Shown here piece by piece: positions 6,861-49,985 of a DNA stretch of 64,000 nucleotides; positions within the stretch are counted from its first letter, which is position 1; every line of letters starts with the position of its first letter. The translations under genes and the position numbers were made by a program. The notes under the pieces were generated by a model that saw only the letters and a list, made by a program, of their open reading frames with translations, did no database searches and was not told the origin of the DNA. The stretch is from assembly GCF_019097595.1 (NCBI RefSeq), contig NC_080719.1:13820001-13884000 (forward strand), written 5' to 3'. The DNA comes from Hemibagrus wyckioides (Eukaryota; Chordata; Actinopteri; Siluriformes; Bagridae).

Positions 6861-7676
6861 GAAAAACAGAAACATCATTTAGGCTGACTAAATCAAATAC
6901 GTGAGCATTTGTTTTGGTCTGTGGATATATGGATTTTCATATATTATAAAGTGTATTAGTAATTAGGAACCCTTTTCTGTGAATCTGACAACCAGAAATA
7001 TTGGCACCCTTGATAAAGATCATCTAAAGGCCTACATGGCTGTGGTGCATGTAGCTTCAGTGCAACTATTTTTATCACCTAGCTTGTATTGTAGTTACAT
7101 GAACTGCACTCAAAGAAATGAATGAAATTTGTCAAATTTCTGTATTATCTTTCTGTTCTTTTGTCTAGTCTTCAGAAAGTATCACGCCAACTAAAAGCAG
7201 ACAGATTTATTTTTTGAGATATTTGACAGTGAACTTCAGTGAGGTTACACTGTTTTCTGAATTCGACATGAATACAGAACACTTTTGTACTTTATTCAGT
7301 TTTATGGTATTAGCTCATCTTGGCTAAATGAGATAAAACCTTGGCTAAATTGAAACCATTAGACTGCAGGAAGCTGTGAAGTAATTCGGTACAGATGATT
7401 GACAGCCGTGAGTCTATAATGTGAGGAAATTTCCCTCACTTTCATTTCTAAAATAAAGTGTGGCTAGATCATTGATAAAGTACAAAATGGTAATGCCTTG
7501 GGGGTATATAAATGAGAATATAGCTGATGCATTGTGGGTAGTAAAGCTGTATGGTGGTACTTTGTGGTGTTACTGTAGTCCGGTGTTCTTAGCGATTGTG
7601 TAAAGGTAATATGACCTGATAGCATTATGATAGCATTATGTCCCACTGGCAACATGTATCCTTCAGCCCAGCATGT
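6861..7676. other. Spacer; possible transposon end near 6960-7030
   Basis: An ATTGGCACCCTTGATAAAGAT string at 6997-7020 resembles the terminal region of a fish Tc1-like family. No transposase is present nearby. The rest is unremarkable. Confidence 0.3.
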
Positions 7677-16365: not shown

Positions 16366-16375
16366 TTCCTTCCTT
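16366..16375. repeat. Flank of the 4-kb element, possible target duplication (left)
   Basis: TTCCTTCCTT immediately before the left inverted repeat is identical to the ten bases after the right inverted repeat (20386-20395). The surrounding sequence is TTCC-periodic, so the true duplication length, six to ten bases or less, cannot be decided. Confidence 0.5.
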
Positions 16376-16390
16376 CACTCAAAAAAATGA
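16376..16390. repeat. Left terminal inverted repeat of the 4-kb element
   Basis: CACTCAAAAAAATGA, the exact reverse complement of 20371-20385. Confidence 0.85.
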
Positions 16391-16575
16391 ACTTTCACTC
16401 TTGTTAGATTTATTAAACCGACCCTTGTTCACAGTACATAAAGAATGCAAGTAACTAAATTAACGTAAGTTTACTATGTTATTTAAACAAAAATTTAGTA
16501 GCATCTACTTTACTTAACAAGTATTTAATCTGTCAATTTAACATGGTTAAGTAAAACGCAAATCCAATTAAATTG

Positions 16576-16686
16576 GACCTTTCGCGGGTGCCATATTTTC
16601 TCGTGGGAGCTGGAGTAACGGACGACGGACGAAAGCGCGAAGAACGAACTGAGAAGAAATCTTAATCGCCATCTTCTTTTTTTCAG
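16576..16686 (+). promoter_or_regulatory. CpG-rich promoter/first noncoding exon of the element-borne gene
   Basis: About ten CpGs fall within 16582-16648, a density not seen elsewhere in this CpG-poor window. Two GCCATNTT motifs (16590 and 16668) fit YY1-type sites, which often lie at transcription starts. A CAG/GTATGA junction at 16686/16687 fits a first-exon donor, giving a 155-bp intron to the acceptor at 16840-16841. The same TTTTTTTCAG string could instead be read as an acceptor, so the exact exon 1 is uncertain. There is no TATA box. Confidence 0.55.
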
Positions 16687-16841
16687 GTATGAATATTTCA
16701 TTATAATTCTTTACCATCCTGATCAACACTGACTATACAAAGTGGTGTAGGTGTCCTGAGAGTTTTATGATTTAAACTTACCAGTCTATTTTGGAGTCTG
16801 TGGCATTTAGTGTTTTTTTTTGTTTTTAAATATTATTTTAG

Positions 16842-19184
16842 GCAGTTATGTTAACTCGCATTTCTTAAGGCAAGCATGTGGCAGTGTAAAGACTGTAAAA
16901 TAACCGTGTCAACTAGATCTCAGTTGTTGAAACACTATAGATTAGTGCATGGACATTATGGTCATGGTAATCGTTTCCCGTGCACTTATTCTGACTGTCC
17001 CTGCAGATTTAAAACATGGAATGCGCTACACAGCCATCTTAACCGTTCACATGCCAAGGAGACCACTGGATTGTCTGTGAATTTAGCTACGTTCAACCGT
17101 CATGTGTGTTCTTGCAGCAACATAGCGTCAACACGTGAGTATTTTAGTCACATCACTAACCATCTAAAAAACAATGAAACAGTGCGTTGTATGTTTGAAC
17201 ACTGCTCTTTTCAGACAAATGTGTGTGGCACATTTAAGTCCCATAAAAATAGGAAGCACAATCCAAACCAGGAGTCGTTAGAGAAAGTGGTACTCAGAAT
17301 TTCTCAGATGAATTCAGTGATGATGAATTGCCAGCAGAAGAGGGGAATGAAGATGTTTCAGGTAGTGTGGAAATTGTCACAGAAGGACAAGATTTGTCCA
17401 AGACCATAGAGCTAAAATTCGCATCAATTTTGCTAAAACTTGAAAATTATTTTCATGCTCCTAGTAATGCCATTGATGAACTTATAACAGATTTGCAGTA
17501 CTTGATCAGTTCTGCATCAGTATCCTTGTCAGCTCAAATTATTCTTGATACCTTTCAGAAACATGATCTTTATGTAGATCAGCTGGTCATAAAAGAGCTG
17601 ATCAGTTCTTTGTCATCGTGCAATCCTCTGTTGAAAGCTACAGCAAAAGATGGTCCTTTAGCCACTGCTTTCAAGTGCATTAAATATTACAGAGAGAATT
17701 TTGAGATAATTGATCCCATTGAAATAATTCTTCAGTCTGAAAAAAAAAAAGATCTTTCCAATATATACCTATCTTAAAATCATTACAACAGCTGCTCAGT
17801 CAGAAAAAGCAGATGGCCAGCTCTATTTTGTGAATATGAGGTAAATATGATGTTATAACTGATATGATGTTTCTTTAGTAGTTTTAAATAGTGTAACAAA
17901 TAGTAATTAATTTCCCTTATGTCAAATTTTGCTTTAGTTATTCATACCATGCAAGGTTAGCCAAAGTGCTGTTTTGTGTTTAGATGTCATTGAATAACCC
18001 TGAATATATTTCTAAACATGAAGGCTATCCTTAGTATAAGCTTATGTCTCTTAAATCTGTAGATTGCTGCTGAATTCACTCGAATCACCACCGTCCCACT
18101 AATTCAGACATTTATGGCAAAACTGGATGGTTACACAAGCAAACTGGCCAGCATCTACTGAAGAAAAGGAGGAGTTGCAGGGCATAAAATTCGCAAACTT
18201 ATGGCTGCCGCTGACCAGGTTTGTGATTTGTAATTATGATGCTTGTAAATCATTTTCAATTTAGTATGATATGTCATCGTCTCTAGCTTAATGTCTGTAT
18301 TGTTCTACAGAATGATACCATCTCAACTCGGAGAGCTTGCATTCTCAGAGCACTTTCTGCGTATCTTAATGAAGATTATGAAAAGCTCATGAAGGAGTAT
18401 GCAGTAAGTGGCATTCTTTTGAGAATATTTAAAGTAAAAATACCCCCCAAAATCACTAGACAATACAATACAGCGCTTATATTTGGGCAAAATTCACATA
18501 ATGTAGTCAAGAAATATAAATGTACAAAGTATATTTAATTCAAAAACATAAACAAAGTAAAGTCGTCTTTTAATGAAACAAACTGAATAGTTTGATGAGT
18601 AACTCAGGTGCAGTTGCAGTAGCATCAGTGGTGCTTTATCATTGCTGGTGGCTTTATTGTTTCTTGAAATCTAGTGTGATTTTTTTTTTTTTTTTTTTTT
18701 TCCTGGGCAACTCATTGGTGTGAAACATTGTGGGCAATTGATACAGAATTCTCAGATTATTTGCTTTTTCTGGATGTGATCCATCATCTAAGTGATAAAT
18801 TTTCAAAATGCATTTGTTGGTGCAGTTAAAATGACTGAATAGTGTTACTCTTTTTGTGTTTTTTAGGATACCGACATTGCGAATGCTGAGAGAGACATGG
18901 CTAATACAGTAATTGGAATTTACATCATCAGGCCTGAAGATGCAGAACTCTGTGATACACCATCAGATGTTGGACTAATTGTTGAGGGAGTGAACGTGCT
19001 TCAGGAGCTTGGCGATGTCACCAAGGCTTGTGCTCTTCTATTGGGAGTCATCTACAGCTTGAATCTCAGCTATCCATCAGACCTGAAGTACACTTTCGAA
19101 TTTTTTCAGAAAGTGTTACTGGGACTTGATGCAAAGAAATTTTCACACAAAATACAGGTTCTCAAAAACAAACTTGTTGATTGA
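16842..19184 (+). pseudogene. C2H2 zinc-finger protein gene (fish multi-copy family), broken
   Basis: Exons inferred from GT/AG sites are 16842-17840, 18063-18218, 18311-18403 and 18867-19184. The last three are in phase 0 and keep one frame into the TGA at 19182. The start is ATG 16876, with A at -3. The N-terminus has three C2H2 fingers: C4-C7-H20-H25, C36-C41-H54-H59 and C105-C110-H123-H128. A helical region and a conserved C-terminal domain (reading DVGLIVEGVNVLQELG, then LKYTFEFFQKVLLGL) follow. This layout recalls a large family of fish proteins, often labelled uncharacterised or SAMD3-like. That is from memory, and function is unknown. Breaks: a frameshift near 17265 after the third finger, a second at the 11-A run 17740-17750, a stop at 17831-17833 just before the donor, and an in-frame TGA at 18159-18161. 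The copy cannot make the full protein. Confidence 0.8.
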
Positions 19185-19621
19185 GTCAGTACATCTTCAT
19201 TTATCTTGCACTTTTAAGTTTTCACAATTTTTTTTTTTTTGACACAAAAAAATAGTCTCAAAATCAGAATTTTTTTGTGACAAACTCTTGTTCACATTTA
19301 AAATGTGTTTGTGTTTTTTTAAAAATTAGGGAGTGGTTGCAATGTTTCCTTAATGGTTAATGGCACTAAATGGCACTTCTGTTAATGGCACTAAAATTTG
19401 AAATCTTGAAAGTGGAGTTCTGCAGCTTTTGAGCAGAGTTGTTTTATTGTTTTTAGGAACTGTGGATTTTAAATAGTGTTTGTGGTTGTTCACCAAAAAT
19501 TAGAGGCCAGTTTTAATGTTCCCTTTACCGATGGCTCAAAAGATATATGAAAAATTGAGTGCTGCAGTATTTTGTGGAACGCTGTCTTGAACAAACTTTT
19601 ATGTATTTTTTTTTTTTTATA

Positions 19622-19627
19622 AATAAA
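19622..19627 (+). terminator. AATAAA polyadenylation signal
   Basis: It lies 438 bp after the stop codon, in a T/A-rich 3' untranslated stretch. Confidence 0.5.
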
Positions 19628-20046
19628 TTGTTTATTATAATATTAGAAGGCATTTGGCCAGTGTAAGAACTTGGGAGGAATGTTTGTTATTGACCAGATT
19701 GTTGTGTTTTTTAAAAATTTTGTTTTATTTTTAAAACAAATTGTGACATTTAAGCTGTTTGTGGTTTACAAAAACAGGCCGGTTTTTGATGTTACCTTCA
19801 TTGATTGCACAAATTATCGGAAATATCAGAAATGGAGTTATGGAGTTTATTTAATATAGTATGTTTCTAATTATATGTTTCTGGTAAATTTATTACAATC
19901 TTTTGAAGGCAGTTGCACTATAAGACATTGTAAAGAATGTTTATTATTAACCAGAAAGAGGTTGTCTAATTGTTTCTAAAGACCTGTTGAATGGAAATTG
20001 TTGCACAGTTTCTTAGCAGTTGTATATTGCAAGACCTTGAAGAGCA

Positions 20047-20052
20047 AATAAA
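20047..20052 (+). terminator. AATAAA polyadenylation signal, distal
   Basis: AATAAA is followed by a GT/T-rich stretch (20056-20100), a plausible downstream element. It lies within the 4-kb element, so transcription could end before the right inverted repeat. Confidence 0.5.
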
Positions 20053-20370
20053 TGCATTTTGTTTCAGAAAATATGCTTGTGATAATTTTTCACTTGTAGA
20101 TCAACTAGTTTAAGTAAATAAAATCAATAAAAAAAGTTTTCACCTGCCACACTGAATGTTCGTAAATGTAACGTAACATTATTAAGTAAAATGTTCATAT
20201 AACTAATTTGTAAAAGTGACAAATCTTAATGTTTTGTATTTACTCAAAGAAATGTTGTCAACTTCACCTACATTTTTTTTGTTCATACAACTAAACCACT
20301 AATCGTAGAAACTACTCAACATAGTTGCGTGGAACCACTTGACACTGCTTTTTTATGTAAGTCCAACAAA

Positions 20371-20385
20371 TCATTTTTTTGAGTG
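20371..20385. repeat. Right terminal inverted repeat of the 4-kb element
   Basis: TCATTTTTTTGAGTG, perfect partner of 16376-16390. Confidence 0.85.
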
Positions 20386-20420
20386 TTCCTTCCTTCCTTC
20401 CTTCCTTCCTTCCTTCCTTC
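20386..20420. repeat. (TTCC)n microsatellite at the right edge of the 4-kb element
   Basis: Eight to nine TTCC units. Only about 2.5 units remain on the left side of the element, consistent with insertion near one end of a pre-existing array. Confidence 0.95.
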
Positions 20421-20829
20421 TCCAGATACTAAACTAACCTAAAGAAGGCCACTTTTATTGCTCCCTTAATTTTCAGCTGTTCTATCACACACATGAAAGG
20501 GGTTTCTAATAAACAGTGAGCCTAATAAAATGATTAGCCTGGATTAGCAAACATAATATGAGACTGAAACAGGGGACTGCTGGTTGCTGATGAAGGGCAC
20601 GCTGAATCAATGTAGGTCAAGAAAGACAACGTAGGTCTTTCTTTAAATATCATCTGATTAATTTTATGTTTTCGAAATGGATAAAAAAATATATATTTCC
20701 ATCACTGTTTTTGTAAAGTTAATAATATGAAAAAAATTATAATAATAATATAAATAGTAATATGAAAAAAATGCTACTAAGGAACCTCAAAGCTTACACG
20801 TTTCTCTGGAAGATTTTCTTGTGTCAGAA
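20421..20829. other. Spacer
   Basis: Nothing recognised. Confidence 0.4.
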
Positions 20830-30654: not shown

Positions 30655-30815
30655 CAGATGCCCTTATCCAGAGTGACTAACATTTGATCTCACTGTTTAT
30701 ACAACTGACAGTTAAGTGCCTTGCTCAGGGACCCAGAAGGGGCAGCATGGTGGACCTGAGATTCATTCCGGTCAGCATGCCAACACTGTAACCACTAAGC
30801 TACCATATCCCCCAA
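30655..30815 (-). mobile_element. Family-A SINE, antisense
   Basis: Reads, as reverse complement, the 3' tail (TTTGGCAGATGCCCTTATCC), the body (GTGCCTTGCTCAGGGACCCAG) and a decayed tRNA head (ACTGTAACCACTAAGCTACC). Same order as 40320-40516. Confidence 0.75.
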
Positions 30816-35023: not shown

Positions 35024-35830
35024 ATGTACATTTAATGCATTGACAGATGCCCTTATCCAGAGCAATGAAGCATCAGTCTTAAACTCAAGGAAATGTTGTG
35101 AGGAAATACAGCAAGAAGATCATAGAGACAAACATTTCAAAAAAGTTTAAGTATTTCAAGAAGAGGTAGGTCTTCACCTGGTGACTGAAGACAGCCTGTG
35201 ACTCAGCTGTTCTGACATCTAGGCGAAGTTCATTCCACCACCTTAGTGCCAGAACAGATAAGAGTCTTAATGTAGACCTTCCTTGTACCCGGAGTAATGG
35301 TGGGACTGGTCACGCAGTGCTGGAGGATCTAAGGGAATATGCTGTAGTGCAGTGAGTGATAAGCGCTTTGAGGTAAGTGGGTGCTGGTCCATTTTTGGCT
35401 TTGTAGGCAAGCATCAGTATCTTAAATCTGCAATGGGGTGGTGTGGGAGATCTTCAGAAGGTTTATTTACAGAGGTTGAATTGCACTCAGAGTTAGACCT
35501 GCCAGGAGTGAGTTGCAGTAGTAGTAGAGGGATGTGGTAGCTTAGTGGTTATGGTTTTGAAGGCCCCACAATTGTGTAAACGCATTTGATGTAATTCGCA
35601 CTGGATAAGGGCATCTACCAAATGCCAGAAATGTAAATGTAGTCTGGTCTAAAAAGGACAAGACTGAACAAGCACCTGAGCAGTCTGCGTAGATAAAAAA
35701 AGGCCAAATCCTTCTGATATTGTAAAGAAGATATGGACCTTAGCATGCCAAATTAGCAATATGTGAGGAAAAGAACAAGAGGAAAAGTCCATGGTTGTCC
35801 TTGGTTACCCCAAGGTCCAGAAATCATGTT
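35024..35830 (-). mobile_element. LINE 3' end (L2/CR1-like), antisense, interrupted
   Basis: On the minus strand, 35830 to 35155 reads the C-terminal end of a non-LTR reverse-transcriptase polyprotein. Readable patches are LYNIRRI near 35715, QVLVQS near 35672 and KTYLF near 35165. Downstream, 35062 to 35024 is the 3' tail CTCTGGATAAGGGCATCTG. Frames are broken and the 5' part is absent, so this is a truncated copy. A SINE (35527-35640) is inserted within it. Confidence 0.7.
35527..35640 (+). mobile_element. Family-A SINE, internally deleted, nested in the LINE
   Basis: GTGGTAGCTTAGTGGTTATGG is a tRNA-like A-box region. CTGGATAAGGGCATCTACCAAATG is the 3' tail. It interrupts the antisense LINE between GTTGCAGTAG and TAGTCTGGTCT, with a short GTAG/TAG overlap as possible target duplication. 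Confidence 0.7.
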
Positions 35831-36193
35831 CATGCAAGATTTAACAGTGAAGATCATGATGGATGTAATCTAAAAATCTTATTGAAACCCTCTCAAACAT
35901 CTTGTCAGTAGAGCTAATGTTAGTTACCTAGCTAACAGTGTTGGTAGGAATTATGAACATTTATAAATATAGCCTACAATTCCTATTAGAAATCCGGTAA
36001 GGTGAGCTATAGCTTGTTTATGGTCCAATCCTTTCTTGCTGCTTGCAAGGAAACCTGCTGCTAATACATTCCTATGAACTAGATATGAGAGTTTTGTGAC
36101 AATCTACGTGTACAAAGTTTTCATCAGTAACATTATCCTGAGAAAATAATCCTGCCCACAAAGTGCTCTGTTCAATATTTCTTGCATAGTTTG
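35691..36193. repeat. 503-bp duplicated segment, copy 1
   Basis: Matches 38332-38834 without gaps, with 7 mismatches by eye (about 98.6% identity). The first ~140 bp overlaps the antisense LINE and the rest is unidentified AT-rich sequence. No target duplication is visible around this copy, so it looks like the source or part of a larger source unit. Confidence 0.9.
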
Positions 36194-38318: not shown

Positions 38319-38331
38319 AGTTGTCCTTCCT
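38319..38331. repeat. 13-bp target-site duplication, left
   Basis: AGTTGTCCTTCCT, repeated exactly at 38836-38848 on the other side of the insert. The uninterrupted Tc1/mariner reading needs only one copy. Confidence 0.85.
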
Positions 38332-38834
38332 AGATAAAAAAAGGCCAAATCCTTCTAATATTGTAAAGGAGATATGGACCTTAGCGTGCCAAATTAGCAA
38401 CATGTGAGGAAAAGAACAAGAGGAAAAGTCCATGGTTGTCCATGGTTACCCCAAGGTCCAGAAATCATGTTCATGCAAGATTTAACAGTGAAGATCATGA
38501 TGGATGTAATCTAAAAATCTTATTGAAACCCTCTCAAACATCTTGTCAGTAGAGCTAATGTTAGTTACCTAGCTAACAGTGTTGGTAGGAATTATGAACA
38601 TTTATAAATATAGCCTACAATTCCTATTAGAAATCCGGTAAGGTGAGCTATAGCTTGTTTATGGTCCAATCCTTTCTTGCTGCTTGCAAGGAAACCTGCT
38701 GCTAATACATTCCTATGAACTAGATATGAGAGTTTTGTGACAATCTACGTGTACAAAGTTTTCATCACTAACATTATCCTGAGAAAATAATCCTGCCCAC
38801 AAAGAGCTCTGTTCAATATTTCTTGCATAGTTTG
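38332..38834. repeat. 503-bp duplicated segment, copy 2, inserted in the Tc1 fossil
   Basis: Nearly identical to 35691-36193, with no indels. It is bounded by the 13-bp duplication AGTTGTCCTTCCT (one extra T at 38835). It lacks a poly-A tail or terminal inverted repeats, so neither ordinary LINE retroposition nor DNA transposition is obvious. Confidence 0.9.
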
Positions 38835-46255: not shown

Positions 46256-46326
46256 GCGTTGGTGGTGTAGCGTTGAGCGTAGGTGCCTTCCAAGCAGTTG
46301 ACCGGGTTCGAATCCTAGCCAACGCA
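46256..46326 (+). tRNA. tRNA-Gly(TCC)-like gene, degenerate
   Basis: The acceptor stem GCGTTGG pairs perfectly with CCAACGC, followed by discriminator A. The anticodon loop CTTCCAA holds anticodon TCC. The T arm has an intact B-box core GGTTCGAATCC. Defects: the D loop lacks the GG pair (GTTGAGC in place of GGTGAGC), the anticodon stem has a G-G mismatch (GGTGC/GCAGT), the T stem has a C-A mismatch and the variable loop is one base short. No T-run terminator follows within about 40 bp. This is best read as a tRNA pseudogene or a tRNA-like SINE head. Gly(UCC) origin is clear. Confidence 0.75.
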
Positions 46327-46819
46327 CTGCCTTCGACCTGGAACTGATGGTTTATGTAACTGTAGAAATAGAGCCAAAATGAGAAAAGGGTGATTACTGA
46401 CAGATAACAAATGAAAAGAAGAAAATATTCAGCACAGAGTAGTGAGAACATTATCACAGCATTTAGCTAGTATTCAACAGGATTAAAGCAGGTCAGGATT
46501 GACTCTGCAGCCTTCTTCCAAAAATGTTAAATTACAGAAGACATGGAAAAACTTTTTGTTATATAACAGCATGATTTTTAAAAATCTGTTTATTTTTTGT
46601 TTTAGATTATGTAAAGGATTCACCATACAATTTGTAAATGTAATTTATTACAATCATTCCCTCATCAGTTTTTCTTTTTTTCCCCTTTTTCTTAAAGTTA
46701 ATAAGAAGGAAAATGCAGCATGTCATGTTTTTTAGACTGAGTTAAAATCCCACAAATCTCTTGAGCAAGACTCTAAACTGCTTGTACTGTATCATCCTTT
46801 GATTGTAAAAAGCAAAAAC

Positions 46820-49368: not shown

Positions 49369-49985
49369 CAAAACAATGCAGCTTTTCCACTAACTAGCGT
49401 TCAGCCAAAACAATGCAGCTTTTCCACTAACTAGCGTTCAGCCAAAACAATGCAGCTTTTCCACTAACTAGCATTCAGCCAAAACAATGCAGCTTTTCCA
49501 CTAACTAGCGTTCAGCCAAAACAATGCAGCTTTTGCACTGACTAGCGTTCAGCCAAAACAATGCAGCTTTTCCACTAACTAGCATTCAGCCAAAACAATG
49601 CAGCTTTTCCACTAACTAGCGTTCAGCCAAAACAATGCAGCTTTTCCACTAACTAGCGTTCAGCCAAAACAATGCAGCTTTTCCACTAACTAGCATTCAG
49701 CCAAAACAATGCAGCTTTTCCACTAACTAGCGTTCAGCCAAAACAATGCAGCTTTTGCACTGACTAGCGTTCAGCCAAAACAATGCAGCTTTTCCACTAA
49801 CTAGCGTTCAGTCAAAACAATGCAGCTTTTCCACTAACTAGCGTTCAGCCAAAACAATGCAGCTTTTCCACTAACTAGCGTTCAGCCAAAACAATGCAGC
49901 TTTTCCACTAACTAGCGTTCAGCCAAAACAATGCAGCTTTTGCACTGACTAGCTTCTATCCAAAACAAAATGCAGTGCCACTTTT
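49369..49985. repeat. 37-bp minisatellite, 16 full units plus a partial one
   Basis: The unit is CAAAACAATGCAGCTTTTCC, then ACTAACTAGCGTTCAGC. Sixteen exactly spaced units run from 49369 to 49960, and a decayed partial unit ends near 49985. Variants: GCATT for GCGTT in units 3, 6 and 9, GCACTG for CCACTA in units 5, 11 and 16, and AGTC in unit 12. Units 3-5 and 9-11 carry the same variant order, suggesting a six-unit (222-bp) higher-order duplication. The absence of indels in the period shows efficient homogenisation. Confidence 0.97.

Follow-up and report, generated by a model that had tools for sequence, protein, structure and literature searches.

In maize, the TnpA protein of Spm assists TnpD, and the dSpm elements are internally deleted Spm derivatives. 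The terminal inverted repeats (TIRs) of En/Spm begin with CACTA and its insertions show a 3-bp duplication. Transib and RAG-like transposons have a 5-bp GC-rich duplication and TIRs of the form CACWRTG. We analyzed a window of 64,000 nucleotides from Hemibagrus wyckioides (contig NC_080719.1, positions 13,820,001 to 13,884,000), in which a 4-kb unit at 16376-20385 is bounded by TIRs and carries a spliced zinc-finger gene. The unit resembles En/Spm in its CACT-type ends, its relation to Transposase_21, the two proteins per element and the occurrence of internally deleted derivatives. For En/Spm itself, four alternatively spliced transcripts are recorded in the accessible part of the SmTRC1 report (PMC1636069). 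That part describes SmTRC1 as having a Transposase_21-type transposase, TIRs, 2-bp direct flank repeats in 7 of 14 copies, spliced transcripts that give different proteins, many truncated copies and relatives in Danio rerio (PMC1636069). SmTRC1 and related animal and fungal CACTA-like (TRC) elements, as far as they are covered there, are like the present unit in transposase type, TIRs, splicing and the occurrence of truncated copies. However, the SmTRC1 TIR is 54 bp long and starts with CCC, compared with 15 bp starting with CACTC here, and neither a BAH-like C-terminus nor a PB1-type second protein was met with in the accessible part of the report (PMC1636069). EnSpm/CMC elements are also listed among fish transposons in the accessible part of a further source (PMC7599744).

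The 4-kb unit is very probably a non-autonomous, internally deleted, CACTA-related (EnSpm/CMC superfamily) DNA transposon inserted in a TTCC microsatellite. The enclosed zinc-finger gene is not a passenger but most likely what survives of the enzyme encoded by the transposon itself, which is structurally related to the immune recombinase RAG1. Relatives were drawn from three lists of 122, 434 and 543 proteins at E <= 1e-3, with 120 matches listed of each, giving 303 collected proteins. They show that the window gene is related to two families, protein 1 and protein 2. Among the matches listed the relatives are mainly from ray-finned fish, although one cluster (P0074) also carries a ferret name. 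The unit is laid out as follows:

16374-16375, no strand: TT, left copy of a likely 2-bp target-site duplication in the TTCC microsatellite; 6 or 10 bp fit too
16376-16390, plus strand: left TIR, CACTCAAAAAAATGA, perfect inverse of 20371-20385; the two TIRs span 4,010 bp between their outer ends
16400-16686, plus strand: promoter-like segment rich in CpG, with a presumed non-coding exon 1, from the CpG ratio and the donor CAG/GTATGA after 16686
16842-17840, plus strand: exon 2, beginning of protein 1 with the C2H2 fingers and a linker, residues 1-313 of 895 in P0010, from tblastn and the junctions
17800-17820, plus strand: internal deletion junction, a long stretch missing around 17809-17815
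18063-18218, plus strand: exon 3, part of protein 2, with an in-frame TGA at 18159-18161
18311-18403, plus strand: exon 4, part of protein 2, from tblastn with P0007 (29/32 identical) and splice sites
18867-19184, plus strand: exon 5, C-terminus of protein 2 and stop, 93/104 residues (89%) identical to P0007 of Leuciscus chuanchicus
19622-20131, plus strand: four AATAAA polyadenylation-like signals, at 19622, 20047, 20117 and 20126
20371-20385, minus strand: right TIR, perfect inverse of CACTCAAAAAAATGA
20386-20387, no strand: TT, right-hand counterpart of the probable target-site duplication, with more of the microsatellite up to 20420

The CpG observed/expected ratio is 1.16-1.62 in the 200-bp segments starting at 16400, 16500 and 16600, compared with 0 to 1.04 in the other 49 segments, the one of 1.04 lying outside the element at 20600. 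GT/AG junctions (donor after/acceptor before) are found at 16686/16842, 17840/18063, 18218/18311 and 18403/18867, and the last three coincide with points where matches to relatives start or stop. Exon 2, mapped by tblastn with P0001, P0004, P0005, P0010 and P0015, is 86-93% identical to the nearest family 1 members, P0001 and P0005. Its frame is broken twice relative to these proteins, near 17265 and in an A-run near 17741-17751. Exons 3 to 5 together match the C-terminal third of the family 2 proteins.

At the deletion junction the match to P0010 stops at residue 313, so that approximately 580 codons of protein 1 are absent, comprising the catalytic core and C-terminus. Protein 2 is shortened too, by approximately 325 codons, and its sequence picks up at RWPALF (P0057 residue 329 of 523). 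Because the tail of exon 2 (SRWPALF) already belongs to family 2, one deletion would have fused gene 1 to gene 2. The first-pass annotation had reported the TIRs, the identical TTCC-periodic flanks, the CpG-rich start, the exon junctions and the polyadenylation signals, all of which we recover. The complete multi-exon gene that it described is instead a broken fusion of two genes, with two frame changes, a TGA and a long deletion. Its three C2H2 fingers need a similar adjustment, as the relatives have four finger-like units and the third unit of the window copy has lost its first cysteine. Judged by its sequence the window copy is unable to make a working transposase, and the element itself is an ordinary decayed derivative.

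The likely identity of the lost part is indicated by the full-length relatives of protein 1. Their predicted fold resembles RAG1/Transib, a comparison that applies to these relatives and not to the window copy. Three acidic residues (D364, D456 and E710) are conserved in 50 of the 50 relatives in A5, the window copy having no core, and this DDE pattern is accompanied by a conserved C2/H2 zinc pattern. The ligands of the third finger-like unit (C75, C78, H92 and H96) are likewise invariant in A5. Weak matches to Transposase_21 at E <= 0.1 were found in 45 of 77 full-length relatives, while the domain is absent from the window copy. Among ten rescanned members Transposase_21 was found in only five and DUF4218 in none. 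The C-terminus of protein 1 was matched by its predicted fold to BAH and may function as such a domain. However, no Pfam BAH match was obtained in 11 segments or in 77 whole members, and a profile search of the PDB with the C-terminus returned one unrelated weak match and no BAH.

Members of the second family are annotated in several fish as 'sterile alpha motif domain-containing protein 3-like' (SAMD3-like). A PB1 profile matches 10 of 22 members, and in the structural model (pLDDT 73, pTM 0.46) PB1 and ubiquitin-like folds fit the first 80 residues about equally, with no trusted match outside residues 1-82. Six of the 303 collected proteins join both families, with gene 1 first in all of them:

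P0003, Maylandia zebra
P0016, Perca flavescens
P0064, Collichthys lucidus
P0089, Oreochromis niloticus
P0212, Merluccius polli, with all seven segments
P0236, Synaphobranchus kaupii

P0003 and P0089 have a nearly identical protein start and may represent one old insertion. P0003 shares its locus name, LOC106676402, with P0296; the former starts with fingers and the latter with PB1, a pattern that alternative transcripts from a single element would give. Both products hold the same unrelated insert of approximately 80 residues in the protein 2 part, perhaps another transposon, which indicates that this locus is itself decayed.

Protein 2 is probably part of every intact element. A CACTA relative in which protein 2 is instead a host gene caught by some copies would be consistent with the small number of joined proteins, with the annotation of protein 2 mostly as a separate gene, and with the lack of any recognised transposition domain in it. 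We consider this arrangement unlikely, given the single join order across six fish species, the naming of both a finger product and a protein 2-only product after the same Maylandia locus, and the 543 protein 2 clusters at E <= 1e-3, a number unusual for a host gene.

The gene as a whole could also be of host origin and carried as cargo in a small Pack-CACTA-like DNA transposon, whose subsequent spread multiplied the fish zinc-finger family. A spliced gene, a CpG-rich promoter and TIRs are indeed found within one unit, and the window copy is without the catalytic part. This origin is nevertheless very improbable, since the full-length relatives are transposase-like in fold, DDE and zinc ligands and Transposase_21 matches, and the part missing is exactly the catalytic one, as an internal deletion would give. 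The first-pass annotation had considered both a host-like gene carried as cargo and a protein that itself takes part in mobility; the second is the better supported, and the first is not borne out. Its remark that no transposase motif is visible is correct for the window copy but not for the family. Its suggestion of an undescribed system finds no support, as the gene most likely encoded the transposase of a CACTA-related element and has lost its catalytic part in this copy.

The 15-bp repeats are probably the true ends of the element. The TTCC microsatellite abuts both arms, and its phase in the joined flanks is kept once the element and one TT are taken out. The direct flanks are identical at 1, 2, 6 or 10 bp and not at 3 or 4 bp; a 2-bp duplication fits best, and 6 and 10 bp also fit. 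A perfect inverted pair of 15-mers turns up somewhere in the element in 30 of 200 shuffles, which makes it nothing unusual; what matters is its placement at the two edges. That a decayed host gene lies between chance repeats, or between two unrelated miniature inverted-repeat transposable element ends, is hardly credible: such shuffled pairs do occur in a 4-kb AT-rich stretch, and TIR-like 15-mers (<=3 mismatches) are at chance level in the window (11 compared with 8.8 expected), but none of 5,000 dinucleotide shuffles gave a perfect 15-bp inverted match across the two 100-bp end segments, both arms adjoin the same microsatellite in phase, and the gene inside is transposase-derived. No subterminal motif is clearly enriched; the best 6-mer is AGTAAA (5 compared with 2), and there is no 7- or 8-mer beyond an A-run. 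A lone TIR-like 15-mer with one mismatch, CACTCAAAGAAATGA, lies at 7107-7121, with no partner found. A second CACTA-like pair (30793-30807 and 35533-35547, CACTAAGCTACC, 14/15) was rejected, as it resembles what we take to be opposite-facing heads of tRNA-type short interspersed elements (SINEs) and not transposon ends.

Several features bear on assignment of the unit to the CACTA/EnSpm (CMC) superfamily. The TIR starts with CACT but differs at the fifth base. A duplication of 2 bp would fall within the range of 2-3 bp, but 3 bp does not fit and the repeat target also allows 6 and 10. The RNase H-like DDE core with its conserved acids is present in the relatives and not in the window copy. The relationship to RAG1/Transib is one of structure and not of membership: only the fold matches, and the TIR sequence CACTCAA does not fit CACWRTG. 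For RAG1/RAG2, RAG-like transposons and Transib the identity is approximately 11-12%. A RAG2-like kelch partner is not present here, C2H2 fingers replace the N-terminal zinc motifs of RAG1, and the BAH-like C-terminus is a further difference from RAG1/RAG2 and Transib.

Several observations weigh against a CACTA-related element. The TIR starts with CACTC and not CACTA, although animal members vary in this respect, as the CCC of SmTRC1 illustrates. All Transposase_21 matches are below the Pfam cut-off (28.6 bits; best 24.5), 32 of the 77 members have no match at E <= 0.1, and the precomputed Pfam column gives PF02992 in 2 of the 120 matches listed in the first list and in none in the second. 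A sequence profile of protein 1 retrieved only zinc-finger chains from the PDB and no RAG1; this result and the BAH negatives count against reading too much into sequence. The length of the target duplication cannot be fixed, as the insertion site is a TTCC repeat, and comparing the element by blastn with the remaining window sequence yielded no match at E <= 1e-3, so a second copy of the ends is not seen. Finally, four of the six joined proteins are only partial sequences, and neighbouring genes may be fused in error in a gene model. Because the TIR and the Pfam scores depart from the strict definition, we call the element 'CACTA-related'. Our confidence is founded on the protein evidence and on the ends of a single copy; the break pattern, the family relations, the predicted fold and the conserved catalytic residues are what the analysis directly shows. 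Most probably, the unit works like a CACTA/CMC element and is one.

The parent element most likely had two genes in a row. Gene 1 would encode a transposase of approximately 895 aa in which C2H2 fingers at the N-terminus precede an RNase H-type DDE core. This core would have a RAG1/Transib-like fold and a split C2...H2 zinc site, and a BAH-like domain would follow at the C-terminus; gene 2 would encode a protein of approximately 525 aa with an N-terminal PB1-like domain. The fingers and neighbouring domain may bind the element ends, while the DDE core would excise the element and insert it elsewhere, duplicating 2 bp of the target. On the model of En/Spm and SmTRC1, protein 2 may be an assisting partner of the transposase, and deleted copies with intact ends could be mobilised in trans. 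In the present copy a single deletion appears to have removed the catalytic core along with the beginning of protein 2, so that the promoter, the exon with the fingers and the final exons of protein 2 are what is left. A finger-only product could, speculatively, bind the ends and repress.

More tentatively, and with slightly less than even confidence, we propose that this CACTA-related lineage of ray-finned fish is a two-protein machine like RAG1/RAG2, in which a RAG1-fold transposase with DNA-reading C2H2 fingers and a chromatin-reading BAH-like C-terminus acts with a PB1-type partner. The fish 'uncharacterized C2H2 protein' (approximately 895 aa) and 'SAMD3-like' families would then be its products and not host genes. 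In the part of the literature covered, no paper was found that attributes this gene pair, the BAH-like C-terminus or the SAMD3-like proteins to a transposon, and scans of viral and genome contigs found patterns but no encoded relative. It is quite possible that a database entry for the element exists.

The window contains other repeats. A 504-bp direct repeat (35690-36193 and 38331-38834) is 98.6% identical, and its second copy is flanked on both sides by AGTTGTCCTTCC, as after a retroposon-like insertion. A tandem repeat of 16.2 copies of a 37-bp unit occupies 49369-49968. A tRNA-Gly (TCC), identified by ARAGORN and Rfam at 46256-46327, adjoins a (GA)n run and could be a gene or part of a SINE.

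If a supposedly uncharacterised fish gene family becomes a set of transposon proteins, many gene models labelled 'C2H2 protein' or 'SAMD3-like' in fish would have to be annotated anew. In Oplegnathus fasciatus, a sex-linked insertion/deletion marker adjoins a gene annotated as samd3, according to the accessible part of that report (PMC11258905). If this gene belongs to the SAMD3-like family described here, the sex marker could be a transposon insertion. Vertebrates would also gain a CACTA-type transposase whose predicted fold is that of RAG1 and which may read chromatin through a further domain; it would lend itself to comparison with the way in which RAG1/RAG2 came by its histone reader.
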